34,061 nt of DNA, taken from a virus. Below the pieces are notes generated by a model that saw nothing but the letters and a program-made list of their open reading frames with translations, made no database searches and was not told the DNA's origin. The translations under genes were made by a program, and so were the position numbers. This document shows, piece after piece, positions 21,755 through 33,849 of the stretch (position 1 is the stretch's first letter; every line of letters starts with the position of its first letter). Where the stretch lies: the IMG/VR virus record IMGVR_UViG_3300032288_001608, positions 1-34,061 of that record; one strand, given 5' to 3'.

Positions 21755-22314
21755 TATATTACAACCGCCTTATATTGGTGATAATTTAGTCCATCCCAAT
21801 AAGGATATTGTGATATTGATGAAGCTGGATCTGCATTCATATTCTTACCTCTATTTTGATAAGACCAAGCAACAAGAGTTAAAATATCACTAACCAAATC
21901 TAATGGTAAAGTGCCATAACCAGCTTGATACTTTATATCATAATAGCCTTGAGAATATAACCATACTTTGCCACCTATCACCTCATAATCCTCATTTACG
22001 GTGAGTGTATCACTCATATTAATGCCCGTTTTCATCACAACCTCATCAACACAATTAAGTGGAGAGTAAGGCAAGTCTACCATCCAAACATTTGGCACGG
22101 TGCCAGTGAGTTGAATGTTTGCTCTTATTAGCTTATTTGTCAAAGACCTACCAGTTAATAACTCAAGATGCTTTCTTGCACTCGAGATTAAATTATCAAT
22201 CAAAGAATCATCTGAGGTATAATCTATCCTCATCCAATTTTTTGCATCCGTTCTACTTACTGGCTCAACCACCGCGTCAGCTAAAATGGTTATCCCGTTT
22301 ATATATATTGCCAT
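21754..22314 (-). CDS. Head-tail connector (gp6-like)
   Basis: A 186-residue protein. PVSRTDAKNWMRIDYTSDD and LIDNLISSARKHLELLTGRSL (about 18-57) are the gp6/connector signature, followed by beta strands and a C-terminal helix (LVSDILTLVAWSYQNRG). It forms the ring below the portal. It overlaps the glycosyltransferase gene by one base, so that gene is firmly embedded in the head module. Confidence 0.88.
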   Translation of the reverse strand: MAIYINGITILADAVVEPVSRTDAKNWMRIDYTSDDSLIDNLISSARKHLELLTGRSLTNKLIRANIQLTGTVPNVWMVDLPYSPLNCVDEVVMKTGINMSDTLTVNEDYEVIGGKVWLYSQGYYDIKYQAGYGTLPLDLVSDILTLVAWSYQNRGKNMNADPASSISQYPYWDGLNYHQYKAVVI

Positions 22315-23288
22315 TACTTGTAATATTTATCAACCATTTCTCTGAGCCAGAGTTCAAATTCATCAAGTGCTTTTCTTGGGTCGTGGTCTTTCGCTCTTTT
22401 TCTTGCTCTCCTTGAGGATTCGGCATACGCCTTTTTCTCATCCAATTTTGTAATTGCTTCAACCCAGCTTTTAGTGTCATTACGATCTTTTATAAATATT
22501 CCAGCATAACCACAATTCTCAACCAAACCATCCGCATTACTACAAATAACTGGTATCCCATTACACATCGCCTCGGTAGCCGTTCTACCCCACGATTCAT
22601 AGTCACTTGGCATCAATAGTATTCTTGTAATGCCATATAAAGGCTTAATATTAGACGTATTTGGCACTATTTTAAGGTTTGGTAGATTAGGTATTACTTG
22701 CTCATCATAACTCCCTAAAACACCTAAAAAACGCTTATTTGGTAATGCCTTAGCTATGCTTTCAAATATCTTACCACCTTTATTCTCGTTTAAGTTTATT
22801 AGTGTAATATATTCGTTGACCTCTGGGTCTTTTCCTAAGTCGTAATCTCTATAATCAACGGGAGGCGGTATTGTAAAGTTATCCCATTTGTAGTTTAATT
22901 TCCTCTTAATCCATAATGAGTTATAGACAATGTGTTGTGGAAATCGTGCATTTTCAATCTCTGGGTACTTATGCGAATTATGTATTAAATGAAATACTGG
23001 TTTTTTATATAATGATGCAGCACCAATTGTCCATTGTGTATAATCTAAATGTGTAAAAACACAATTACTCCATCTAAATAAATTCTCAATAACATTTGGA
23101 TTTGGTGGAAATACATCCACCCCATCAAAACAATAATTATTTTTTATTTTATAGTGGTTAGCTTGATGTAATAAAACCCTAACATTATGACCTTTAGCCA
23201 TCAAGTCTTTTGCCATATTATGAGCCATCCATTCTGCACCACAATTATGAACTGGAGGATATAAGTGTATGCTAAAAAGTATATTCAT
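22314..23288 (-). CDS. GT4-type (GT-B fold) glycosyltransferase
   Basis: A 324-residue protein with the classical GT4 layout: an N-terminal Rossmann domain with PPVHNCGAEWMAHNMAKDL (11-29) and, in the C-terminal domain, LLMPSDYESWGRTATEAM with the EX7E pair (E231, E239) and PVICSNADGLVE. It transfers a sugar from a nucleotide sugar. It lies between the methyltransferase (17-base overlap) and the connector (one-base overlap), so it is expressed with head proteins. That suggests modification of virion proteins or host surface sugar. No membrane segment. The family call is strong; the target is unknown. Confidence 0.88.
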   Translation of the reverse strand: MNILFSIHLYPPVHNCGAEWMAHNMAKDLMAKGHNVRVLLHQANHYKIKNNYCFDGVDVFPPNPNVIENLFRWSNCVFTHLDYTQWTIGAASLYKKPVFHLIHNSHKYPEIENARFPQHIVYNSLWIKRKLNYKWDNFTIPPPVDYRDYDLGKDPEVNEYITLINLNENKGGKIFESIAKALPNKRFLGVLGSYDEQVIPNLPNLKIVPNTSNIKPLYGITRILLMPSDYESWGRTATEAMCNGIPVICSNADGLVENCGYAGIFIKDRNDTKSWVEAITKLDEKKAYAESSRRARKRAKDHDPRKALDEFELWLREMVDKYYK

Positions 23289-23835
23289 AGATAATATCAG
23301 CTTCTAATTTTATTAGTTTTGCTGGGCTTGTCTTTTTTACAAAGTATTGTAAAAACTCATTATCTACATAATGAGTCTCAAATTTTAATTGTTTTATTTT
23401 GTATTTGTCAATATCAATGCTATCAACAATTACTTGGTCATAACCCTCACAATCCACTTGCACATAATCCACTTCATCAAAACCATACTTCTCGCATAAC
23501 ATATCAAATGTTACCGACTTTGCTTCGTGGTAACTTAACTCATCTATCTTTGCCAAGTATCTATTGAGTGGTGTGCCAAACTTAACGACACTACTACACC
23601 CACCCAAAAAATCCTCAGCATCAGGTAAATATGCCATCACAATATCCTCTATCCTATCACTAACAACTGAGTTTTCAAGATATACTTTACAACTCAATTT
23701 CTCTACGTTCTTTTGCAGTTTCTTAAACTGATGTGGTATAGGCTCCACAAATAAAGCAACATCATCTTTTGTTAGCTTGTCAAATATATTGTCAAAGCTA
23801 ACTCCATCCATTGCCCCTATGATAATATAGTTCAT
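23272..23835 (-). CDS. FkbM-like SAM-dependent methyltransferase
   Basis: A 187-residue protein with FkbM features: an N-terminal glycine-rich start IIIGAMDGVSFD (4-15), FVEPIP (E31 as a likely SAM ribose ligand), and VDYVQVDCEGYD (121-132). FkbM-type enzymes methylate hydroxyls of sugars or small molecules. It overlaps the glycosyltransferase by 17 bases, so the pair may make or decorate a methylated glycan. The length is somewhat short for the family. A hairpin precedes the start. Substrate unknown. Confidence 0.88.
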   Translation of the reverse strand: MNYIIIGAMDGVSFDNIFDKLTKDDVALFVEPIPHQFKKLQKNVEKLSCKVYLENSVVSDRIEDIVMAYLPDAEDFLGGCSSVVKFGTPLNRYLAKIDELSYHEAKSVTFDMLCEKYGFDEVDYVQVDCEGYDQVIVDSIDIDKYKIKQLKFETHYVDNEFLQYFVKKTSPAKLIKLEADIIYEYTF

Positions 23836-30602: not shown

Positions 30603-30995
30603 CTATAACTTCTCTACTCTACATTCATATTTATTCACTATATCCATTATCACTTGATTGACCATAGTCTCATCATCAAAGGTGAGCATAACTCTTATTG
30701 GTTCGTTGGTGTACTTAGCCACCGCTTCTTTTACCGAGTTGTACAGTTCAATAGTCAACTCATCACCTACCTCAAGATAAGATGCAATCTTATCAACGGA
30801 GTAAATCACAGTGGAGTGGTGAGCATCTAAGTAGTGAGCAATATCCATAAAGGTCTCTTTCAACTTAACTCTAGCAACATAAGAAAAAATATATCTTGGT
30901 AAGACCAGTTTCCTATACCGATCCTTACCCGTTATTTTCTCTTTTGTTTGTCCACTACAACTCGCTACGATGTCCATCAATTGGTCTAAATTCAT
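30603..30995 (-). CDS. Free-standing DnaA domain IV-like origin-binding protein
   Basis: A 130-residue protein. Residues about 1-85 match the C-terminal DNA-binding domain of DnaA: KLVLPRYIFSYVARV (29-43), a helix-turn-helix and the signature HHSTVIYSVDKI (59-70), the segment that contacts the DnaA box. There is no AAA+ ATPase domain. The C-terminal 45 residues are a separate tail. It could bind DnaA-box-like sites and recruit or block host DnaA at the nearby candidate origin. The domain identity is clear; the role is inferred. It is next to the iteron region. Confidence 0.85.
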   Translation of the reverse strand: MNLDQLMDIVASCSGQTKEKITGKDRYRKLVLPRYIFSYVARVKLKETFMDIAHYLDAHHSTVIYSVDKIASYLEVGDELTIELYNSVKEAVAKYTNEPIRVMLTFDDETMVNQVIMDIVNKYECRVEKL

Positions 30996-31021: not shown

Positions 31022-31239
31022 CATTGTGGAAACCGAGCCATCAAAGCCATCAAAAATCCCACTTCTTCCCTATATATATGTATATATATATATTCTTATT
31101 ATTATTATAATTTAAGAAATTTGATGGTTTTATTGGCTCACCCCTCCTAACGCATTGAAAATCAATAAAGAGCGATAGCCAATAAACTTTTTAGCTTGAT
31201 GGCTTTTGATGGTCGTGTTGGCTATTTTTCGCCATTTTC
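31022..31239. other. Candidate replication origin, intergenic part: iterons, AT tract and inverted repeats
   Basis: The gap between the primase and DnaA domain IV genes has GCCATCA units at 31037-31043 and 31046-31052 (nine-base period), TGATGG units at 31122, 31197 and 31207, a long AT-only tract around 31071-31120, an inverted repeat ATAGCCAA/TTGGCTAT (31175-31182 and 31218-31225) and a palindrome ATTGAAAATCAAT (31154-31166). Iterons plus an AT-rich melting region are hallmarks of phage origins. Origin function is inferred. Confidence 0.7.
31071..31120. other. AT-rich tract, candidate DNA-unwinding element
   Basis: Almost only A and T, with alternating TA steps and ATT repeats, flanked on both sides by iterons. 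Such easily melted DNA is expected at a replication start. Confidence 0.55.
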
Positions 31240-33849
31240 TTAGAACACATCATCATTTTTTATAATGGGTTCATACCCACTTGCCATCAACTTGCCATCA
31301 TTTGCCATCAAAAAGCCATCACTTGCCATCAACTTTTTATTTTGATGGCTATCCAAATTGTGGATAAAAATAAATCTCCCGTGCTTCACCGACCTCTTTT
31401 GAGACACCTCAAGTTGGTTAATATCGCAGTAAGTTTTGACCTTTCTACTAAAATATTTGTCCAACATTTTGACCTTAAAAGCCTTGATGCAATACCTCAA
31501 AAGATGAGAATTATAGACGTTTAAACCTCCACTTTCCCACTCAAAACAACCAATCAAACTATCTTTATCGTGTTGCAATTGGTCATAAGGGGTCATCATT
31601 TCCTCAAATTCAAGGTGGTTTTTTGCGAGTTTATAGGTGCTAATTCCTTGCTCAAGCACCTCAATGATGAACTCTGGGACTTGATCTTGTAACAATCTCT
31701 TAGCCTTATTATCATCCATTTTGGCATTATTATACTCTACAATACCATCTTTAAGATAGACCTGGATGCACTCAATGGCAAAGTTTATAGCACTCATCTT
31801 CTCATAATAATCCCAATCATCAGAGAAAAAATCTTGCCCATTAAACGCATCTTTTAATCTATAACTACTACTAAATACCTTCTTGATTGGTACAACGATA
31901 AACCTATCTTTATCAGAGTCGCTCTCCAATGATGGCAAAAAGTTAGTTGTGATAAATACCTTTGGCGATTTGTTAAATGGGATGGTGTAAGATTTTTTAC
32001 CCTTATTCTCGATTAGAAAGTCATCGGTGATATAATTGTAGAACTGTTGGATGGGTAGTCCCTTTTGAGGATCGTTCAAGTAAAACACTTGTGTCCAAGG
32101 TGAGATGCGTTGCATCTTGAACTGGGAGTCTGTTTTATAATTCCTACCATCTTGCTCAATGGTTTGCCTAATCCATTTAATAAATTGCCCTAAAAGTCCC
32201 TTTCCACTCCTACCTCTTGCCTCCTCTTGATCATCTACATCCTCAATAATCATTACCGCTTTAGCAAAGCTTTTGCGCTTAAAGTTGTGCAAGATATAAC
32301 CAAACGCACTCATAAGAAACCTCTTATGACCTTCATCAAGCGAAATCATATTGATGAACTGTACAAAACTACCAGCATCATTATTAGGCTTATAGTCAAA
32401 GCTTTTAATATCTCTAACAAACACATACGAGTCCAACTCATTGTACTTAATCAACTCCATCTCATTACCACTAACCTTTAATACACCATTATTAAACAAT
32501 AAATAACTACAATCACTACTATCTCTAAGTACGTTGCCATCAAATTGTGGTAGGATGGTCAAATACGACATCAATCTTGGCAAAAATGCAATAAGTAATC
32601 TTTGCGCATCAGCTTCCATATATTCCACCATCACAAAGTCAACAAATGCACGTTGGATGTCAGACTCATCAATATCATAAATCACATTCTCAACGACTCT
32701 TATTAACCTTGATGGCGCATCATCATCAATGGACATTTTCATCATCATAAACCCACTCTCTATCGCCCAAAGTTGTATGCCACGAATCTCAAGCCTCCAC
32801 GTTAACCCATTCCTACCAGCCACCGATGATACCATTGGCACTCTTTCAGGCAACTCTATCCCCATTTGCCCACATAGGTCAACCACAACCCGACTTGTTT
32901 CATCCCAATTCCTATCATTTAAATAAAACAACACTTGGTAAGGACTAAGCCACGATGCGAGTCCTTCGCTATTATTGATGGATGGCAACTTAACTCCTAC
33001 ACTATCCGTATAAACACTAAGCCTCTTACTATTATAATAATACGATGCAGAGCGAACACTCCTCTCATCCTCCCCCTTCCCAGGTCTATACAACTCAATA
33101 AACTTGCCATAATCCTTACCATTACCAAGCCTTCGCCCATTCAATGACCAACCAAGAGACTCCAAATAATTAGGTATAAACATCTCATCAACCTTGCTAT
33201 CAAATATGTCCATCACTTGCTTGTACTTAATGGGTGGTTGGGGGAATTTAGCAATACTACGCTGCTTAACCCCTCCACTTGATGTGATAGCATTTCCCTT
33301 GTATGTGTTGAACTGGTAACCACAATCTATAAGTTGCATCATCTCATCAAAGTCAAGTGTCTCGAGTTCAAGCAAACTCCTTTGAATGAATGAGTACTTA
33401 GGTGTAGGTGCGCAGTAAGTAATCCCATTAAAATTATCACCACGCAAACCAATTACTTCTCGCCCTTCATCATTATAAGCTATGCCGTGAACATCACATT
33501 TATCATTGCATAAGAAGTAAACGTGGTAGCCATTCGACCTTGTGCGCTCAATTACTAGCTTACCATATATCACTGGGTCAATCAAAGCCTTCCAATTCTC
33601 AAACACATTCCTACCAATGGCATTCTTCTCATCAAAGTCAAGACATTTCAAATTAGGGTTGGCTTTCGACATTAACACCGCTATGCCATTACTAAACCCT
33701 TTGCCTATCCACTCTTGATGCTCATCATCACTCAACCCATTATCAAACTTGGTGTTGTATTCATAAATGTGATATATGCGCCCATCGGTGTATTTAATTG
33801 GTAAAACCTTCACACCACTATAATCTAGTTCCCTAATTAATTCTAACAT
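31240..33849 (-). CDS. Primase-polymerase (AEP) fused to SF3/D5-type helicase
   Basis: An 869-residue replication protein. The N-terminal prim-pol region has LDFDE (70-74) with the two metal-binding Asp residues and SNGYHVYF (105-112), and a later conserved NGITYCAP segment. The C-terminal part has a Walker A-like GRSGKG around residue 547 and PKVFITTNF, typical of SF3/D5-type helicases. It should prime and unwind DNA at the phage origin. Its 3' end contains five iterons (31282-31331), which encode repeated short peptides such as LMASDGF and LMANDGK, so coding and origin functions overlap. Its start overlaps the HNH stop by seven bases. Confidence 0.9.
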   Translation of the reverse strand: MLELIRELDYSGVKVLPIKYTDGRIYHIYEYNTKFDNGLSDDEHQEWIGKGFSNGIAVLMSKANPNLKCLDFDEKNAIGRNVFENWKALIDPVIYGKLVIERTRSNGYHVYFLCNDKCDVHGIAYNDEGREVIGLRGDNFNGITYCAPTPKYSFIQRSLLELETLDFDEMMQLIDCGYQFNTYKGNAITSSGGVKQRSIAKFPQPPIKYKQVMDIFDSKVDEMFIPNYLESLGWSLNGRRLGNGKDYGKFIELYRPGKGEDERSVRSASYYYNSKRLSVYTDSVGVKLPSINNSEGLASWLSPYQVLFYLNDRNWDETSRVVVDLCGQMGIELPERVPMVSSVAGRNGLTWRLEIRGIQLWAIESGFMMMKMSIDDDAPSRLIRVVENVIYDIDESDIQRAFVDFVMVEYMEADAQRLLIAFLPRLMSYLTILPQFDGNVLRDSSDCSYLLFNNGVLKVSGNEMELIKYNELDSYVFVRDIKSFDYKPNNDAGSFVQFINMISLDEGHKRFLMSAFGYILHNFKRKSFAKAVMIIEDVDDQEEARGRSGKGLLGQFIKWIRQTIEQDGRNYKTDSQFKMQRISPWTQVFYLNDPQKGLPIQQFYNYITDDFLIENKGKKSYTIPFNKSPKVFITTNFLPSLESDSDKDRFIVVPIKKVFSSSYRLKDAFNGQDFFSDDWDYYEKMSAINFAIECIQVYLKDGIVEYNNAKMDDNKAKRLLQDQVPEFIIEVLEQGISTYKLAKNHLEFEEMMTPYDQLQHDKDSLIGCFEWESGGLNVYNSHLLRYCIKAFKVKMLDKYFSRKVKTYCDINQLEVSQKRSVKHGRFIFIHNLDSHQNKKLMASDGFLMANDGKLMASGYEPIIKNDDVF
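31282..31349. repeat. Iteron array within the primase gene end
   Basis: TGCCATCA occurs at 31282-31289, 31293-31300, 31303-31310 and 31324-31331, and GCCATCA at 31315-31321, giving 10-11 base spacing, about one DNA turn. A final unit (TTGATGGC at 31342-31349) is inverted and forms a hairpin with GCCATCAA at 31325-31332. Regular helical phasing is typical of origin iterons. Confidence 0.85.
31359..31367. promoter_or_regulatory. Perfect DnaA box (TGTGGATAA)
   Basis: An exact match to the consensus DnaA box TTATCCACA on the minus strand, ten bases from the iteron array and within the primase gene. Together with the adjacent DnaA domain IV gene it points to DnaA-type recognition at this origin. 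Confidence 0.75.

Follow-up and report, generated by a model that had tools for sequence, protein, structure and literature searches.

The window, as we call the whole stretch of DNA analysed, is a 34,061-bp IMG/VR virus record whose 123-bp terminal repeat backs a circle of 33,938 bp. It represents a complete tailed phage, encoding terminase, portal, capsid, protease, tail, tape measure and endolysin, and its main genes all lie on the - strand. Three further regions of this strand deserve mention. The gene at 764-1594 belongs to the phrog_842 family, annotated as beta-glucosyl-HMC-alpha-glucosyltransferase, and might point to modified phage DNA or to another sugar transfer. Two genes at 22314-23835, one glycosyltransferase-like and the other of unknown family, lie within the head block between the capsid and connector genes. 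The gene at 1581-1982 displays a weak ParB-like match (phrog_620).

The locus studied here comprises the 3' end of a primase-helicase gene (31240-33849, - strand) and the gap that separates it from a gene for a DnaA domain IV-like protein (DnaA-IV; 30603-30995, - strand). An earlier interpretation made from the letters of the window (the sequence-only reading) had named both flanking genes, and both identifications hold. The 130-aa DnaA-IV matches PF08299 (3e-13). Its recognition helix reads AHHSTV, the majority of homologues having DHTTV. Two separate small genes annotated as dnaA-like occur in MW202828 (L037), a 61-kb phage with a related primase. Two phage-labelled records retrieved as DnaA-IV relatives, MT835860 (L039) and MT837747 (L040), proved to be pieces of bacterial chromosome around dnaA and were rejected.

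The 869-aa primase-helicase matches phrog_28855 (2e-38) and phrog_19930, DNA polymerase/primase (2e-9), and its relatives carry Pfam Prim-Pol and DUF5906. One GenBank row was dropped from the alignment behind its structure model and three more rows were left out for shortness. The structure nearest to the model is the SaPI5 primase-helicase (Foldseek 4.6e-12), the match falling in the helicase region at residues ~348-724 (31678-32808, - strand; VIA Z 20.9 over 337 residues against 7OLA chain C). Pox D5/E5, ASFV PrimPol and NrS-1 follow. The fold match thus assigns the protein to D5-type SF3 helicases like SaPI5 Rep. This likeness is one of fold, since PDB sequence search and profile search with the primase returned no match. 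A P4-family primase match appeared in a single relative (L132), below threshold.

Downstream of the helicase, AlphaFold predicts a C-terminal domain at residues 745-830 (31360-31617, - strand; pLDDT ~75-89) with elements in the order H-H-H-E-E. The label "winged helix" refers to this predicted order; matches of the domain in PDB are weak (Z 6.4 or less), and Foldseek with the C-terminal piece alone gave nothing below E 0.001. Directly after this winged-helix-like domain comes a predicted disordered tail, codons 835-869 (LMASDGFLMANDGKLMASG; 31243-31347, - strand; pLDDT ~30-50), which is encoded by the repeat array described below and is missing from more distant primases.

The array consists of short iterons and covers both the end of the primase gene and the gap before dnaA-IV, in the window as well as in relatives. 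The sequence-only reading had counted about eleven of them, and exactly 11 TGATGGC/T sites (nine TGATGGC and two TGATGGT) were found in the 313 bp from 31037 to 31349, as compared with 15 in the remaining 33.7 kb (Poisson P ~8e-18); the second-densest 313-bp stretch of the window contains three. Degenerate copies at 31131 (TATTGGC, + strand), 31178 (TATTGGC, - strand) and 31216 (TGTTGGC, + strand) widen the set by three. Spacing within blocks is 9-11 bp, as had been read from the letters: 10-11 bp in the coding block and 9-10 bp within pairs.

Six sites are located within the primase ORF, the rest of the array beyond it, so the claim that the array is partly written in the last primase codons proved right. 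Five of the six are TGATGGC copies on the - strand that are kept in relatives (31283, 31294, 31304, 31315 and 31325, spanning 31283-31331), and the sixth is an inverted TGATGGC at 31343-31349 on the + strand. Past the stop codon, copies go on with a middle group at 31178-31222, in which the degenerate sites at 31178 and 31216 enclose TGATGGC at 31197 and TGATGGT at 31207, both on the + strand. Next comes a pair at 31122-31137 (+ strand), composed of TGATGGT at 31122 and the degenerate site at 31131. A distal pair of TGATGGC at 31037 and 31046 (31037-31052, - strand) concludes the array.

Between the iteron sets 31122-31349 and 31037-31052 stands an AT-rich tract (31071-31120), conserved in relatives, which we propose as the unwinding element. 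It is not AT-only, as had been supposed: three G/C interrupt it, and the longest stretch of nothing but A/T measures 20 bp. The instability implied by that description was borne out, however: no other 30-bp or 50-bp segment of the 33,938-bp circle is as unstable (z 4.1-4.5), though for lengths of 80 and 100 bp the tract ranks third and seventh. The predicted inverted repeats were also recovered. Iterons build up an inverted repeat at 31035-31139 with arms 31035-31054 and 31120-31139, the latter containing the pair at 31122-31137; 17 of 20 positions are paired and the tract is enclosed in a 65-nt loop (score 14.0, maximum of 20 shuffles 10.8). A perfect DnaA box (TTATCCACA; 31359-31367, - strand), likewise noticed before, lies inside the primase gene and is the sole one in the window. 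A degenerate DnaA-box-like site (GTTTCCACA; 31025-31033, - strand) reads TTTCCACA in 12 of 12 alignment rows, with G or C in front. Two boxes, one of them degenerate, do not make up a DnaA-box cluster of oriC type.

The sequence-only reading had suggested looking for TGATGGC in related phages. In 11 close relatives the array is present together with the AT tract and DnaA box. In the 12-row alignment including the window these elements are invariant or nearly so, and the distal pair is identical in all 12 rows; absence of iterons from close relatives, named beforehand as an argument against an origin, was thus not observed. Among seven full-length primase genes, synonymous divergence in codons 826-857 is 0.020 against a gene mean of 0.350, the lowest value among 795 equal windows of the gene being 0.165. 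Amino-acid divergence is the highest of the gene in the last 30 codons (0.154), and the region of codons 835-869 combines high amino-acid divergence with synonymous divergence of 0.02-0.03. Because synonymous divergence collapses where amino-acid divergence peaks, selection acts on the DNA itself in the array-bearing codons, and the codons of the primase tail serve a DNA motif. At this gene end, constraint on DNA overrides constraint on protein. In two relatives (L006 and L007), some TGATGGC copies are replaced by CATTGGC with spacing unchanged and the protein altered.

These data bear on the simplest alternative, namely that the repeats have no function as DNA and simply reflect a protein tail of repetitive sequence. 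The tail does contain the recurring peptides LMASDG and LMANDG. Still, synonymous sites are frozen precisely where the protein varies, copies are found beyond the stop codon, and random choice of synonymous codons yields 1.84 sites on average in place of six (P=0.00035), which leaves this explanation a negligible chance.

Comparison of 11 loci, including the window, revealed that the same layout recurs with differing repeat sequences. In relatives with primase identity of 57% or lower, the repeats are TCATGAT, GTACCGC, GTACCAC, ACCACTT, GTACGCGAT or GTACACGAT. Each such locus has copies of its own motif within the 3' portion of its primase gene. The compared loci also have a block past the primase stop codon and an AT-rich tract, except that in L166 just the middle pair of the block is left. 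A further set before dnaA-IV is found in the window type and in L006, L041, L181, L185, L187 and L190. Those L132-type loci that lack a distal inverted pair depart from the window layout. Within each region, the top-scoring inverted repeat mostly consists of iterons; in 10 of 12 loci its score is higher than that of any of 20 shuffles (exceptions are L006 and L190). One example of the shared layout is L041, with primase identity of 57%, unchanged gene order and layout, and TCATGAT repeats; ten TCATGA are packed in ~350 bp, as compared with three elsewhere in 10 kb. Loci with relatives of the L132 primase carry GTACCRC, ACCACTT or GTACRCGATT, the repeat depending on the primase subgroup, and their DnaA-IV varies widely.

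A repeat array at the gene end is absent in ~65 more distant primases, which also serve as control for the family-wide repeat test. Array-type origins thus appear not to be universal in the primase family, and our claim is limited to the nearer clades together with L059/L063/L064 and L083. The latter are distant primases with gene-end repeat clusters of their own, situated near 6149 in L083 and near the stop in L059/L063/L064 (CCCGTCA ten times, TCCTTCA six to seven times). Exact scan of viral contigs for three TTGATGGC retrieved 14 loci (L023-L036) with tight arrays and without relatives of 12 tested window proteins, apart from a weak exonuclease match in L027.

Which protein goes with the repeats can be judged from their covariation. 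Over the 11 loci, which are partly related to each other, repeat similarity correlates with primase identity (Mantel 0.43, p=0.001) but does not correlate with DnaA-IV identity (Mantel 0.03, p=0.40). A natural experiment is provided by L041 and L132. Nucleotide comparison of these phages displays 88-94% homology outside a non-homologous block that consists of the primase gene and the whole array; homology restarts 6 bp ahead of the dnaA-IV start. Their DnaA-IV are 96% identical, their primases differ, and the repeats change completely from TCATGAT to TGTACCG (L132: TTTTGTACCGC). Conversely, L132 and L170 have the repeat core GTACC in common with primase identity of 84% and DnaA-IV identity of 36%. 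Initiator and origin thus appear to be inherited and exchanged as one cassette, and this exchange assigns the repeats to the helicase-primase, not to the protein that resembles DnaA. The TerS gene has likewise been exchanged between these two otherwise 88-94% identical phages (L132 6655-7050, L041 8512-8796).

The sequence-only reading had suggested DnaA-IV as a protein that might bind the array. An origin with DnaA-IV as specific iteron reader, with or without host DnaA, would agree with the adjacency of its gene in the compared loci, with the perfect DnaA box within the array and with the fast divergence of DnaA-IV, including its altered recognition helix. The two pairs of phages just described contradict it: the repeats are replaced beside a nearly unchanged DnaA-IV and retain their core beside a very different one. 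The consensus DnaA box, moreover, is present in three of 12 loci and absent from nine; TTATCCACA is identical in all 12 rows of the window clade and beyond this clade occurs just in L181. It is a feature of the window clade (and L181), not of the origin type. On this evidence DnaA-IV does not seem to be the sequence-specific reader of the array, and we reject this variant as very unlikely. The DnaA-IV gene stays beside the proposed origin across repeat types; its product might influence initiation by the host, affect transcription or serve as an accessory factor.

TerS is another potential reader. The array would then be a packaging (pac) site recognized by the small terminase, the gene of which lies ~1 kb downstream; TerS and TerL genes are indeed nearby, and L041 and L132 differ both in TerS and in the array. 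L168, however, combines L132-type repeats with a TerS 90% identical to that of L041, and L006 and L007 have common variant repeats with TerS only 80% identical, which makes a pac site highly improbable. Because repeats track the primase and not DnaA-IV, and TerS is excluded by L168, the primase-helicase is the likely partner of the repeats. Linkage could partly explain this co-inheritance, as the array adjoins the primase gene, yet the distal set beside dnaA-IV changes too.

Finally, the iterons might form an operator block, bound by a phage protein that controls, negatively or positively, the transcription of dnaA-IV and of the terminase operon. Initiators often autoregulate, and the array does lie upstream of dnaA-IV and the following genes of the same direction. 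We regard this as very unlikely to be the main function, in view of sites that run >100 bp into the 3' end of the upstream gene, of two sets on either side of the 50 bp with the lowest stability in the genome, and of a repeat type that tracks the helicase-primase. Operator function could be an added role of the array.

Taken together, the repeats at the end of this DNA-copying gene very probably mark the place where the phage starts copying its genome. We are fairly confident of a more specific proposal: that the array is a phage replication origin of the SaPI/PICI rep-ori kind, read by the primase-helicase and exchanged as a cassette. The suggestion made from the window letters, a theta-type origin of the phage that lies partly within the primase gene, thus receives strong support from DNA-level conservation of the coding repeats, their near-invariance in close relatives, recurrence of the layout with other repeat sequences and coincidence with the least stable 50 bp of the genome. 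GC skew, proposed as a further check, does not indicate the site: with all main genes on one strand, its sign never changes along the circle, and its detrended extremes (716 and 25179) are away from the array.

We infer origin activity, binding by the C-terminal domain, melting, loading and directionality according to the following scheme. The primase-helicase, with its prim-pol-like N-terminus, D5-type SF3 helicase and winged-helix-like C-terminus, would bind TTTGATGGC-type sites by means of the C-terminal domain. Helicase hexamers would assemble on the two site sets around the AT-rich tract, melt it, load themselves, unwind and prime. The array is situated directly 3' of the proposed initiator gene and reaches into its last codons; because these encode a predicted disordered tail, origin sequence would be tolerated there as protein. 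It is conceivable, if doubtful, that iterons invading the gene end shaped the disordered tail of the initiator and that DnaA-IV is a second factor acting on host initiation.

Several known systems resemble this locus. Origin inside the initiator gene is textbook knowledge for lambda, where it is placed mid-gene, whereas the window array occupies the 3' end of the gene and the sequence past it. The candidate initiator here is an SF3 helicase-primase, which lambda O is not. Common to both is overlap of iterons and an AT tract with the initiator gene (six sites in the window ORF), and Stx phages have two additional iterons, which lengthen O by 13 residues (PMC7466680).

ORF904 of pRN1 likewise consists of prim-pol, SF3 helicase and C-terminal winged helix and has its origin downstream of its own gene (PMC4234260). 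The inverted repeat of the window may be a counterpart of the ~100-bp inverted-repeat element of pRN1; it has arms of 20, a 65-nt loop and AT content of 0.83, and such a repeat does not surround the AT tract in every relative. pRN1 is devoid of iterons, whereas the window arms are made of them. In satellite P4, with its ori/crr, the alpha protein is a primase-helicase whose winged-helix domain binds repeats (PMC4234260). A primase-helicase is the candidate repeat binder in the window too, but the primase of P4 alpha is of Toprim type.

The closest analogy is offered by SaPIs and other PICIs. The C-terminal domain of SaPI Rep recognises iterons directly downstream of its own gene, apparently as two hexamers (PMC7581432), and PICI origins, which immediately follow the initiator gene on its 3' side, always have an AT-rich region with an iteron set on either side (PMC6092414). 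By analogy, the phage locus fits this pattern: the putative origin directly follows the 3' end of the gene for a primase-helicase, the proposed initiator, an AT-rich tract lies between two sets of iterons, and the protein has a D5-type SF3 helicase with SaPI5 Rep as the closest solved structure. Differences are that sequence-level match to SaPI Rep was not found, that iterons enter the initiator coding sequence, and that an extra DnaA-IV gene is present. Such arrangement has so far been described mainly in phage satellites such as SaPIs, and within the part of the literature covered no paper on these phages was found. What is new is that these features occur together in complete tailed phages, that the overlap with coding sequence has been quantified, and that a natural exchange of cassettes splits the initiator from DnaA-IV. 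Origin recognition by a large, mostly unannotated primase-helicase family becomes testable, with a matched initiator/repeat pair for each phage type. Since the window encodes a complete tailed phage (terminase, portal, capsid, tail and endolysin), it is not itself a PICI satellite; a replication module of satellite type would here be placed in full phages.
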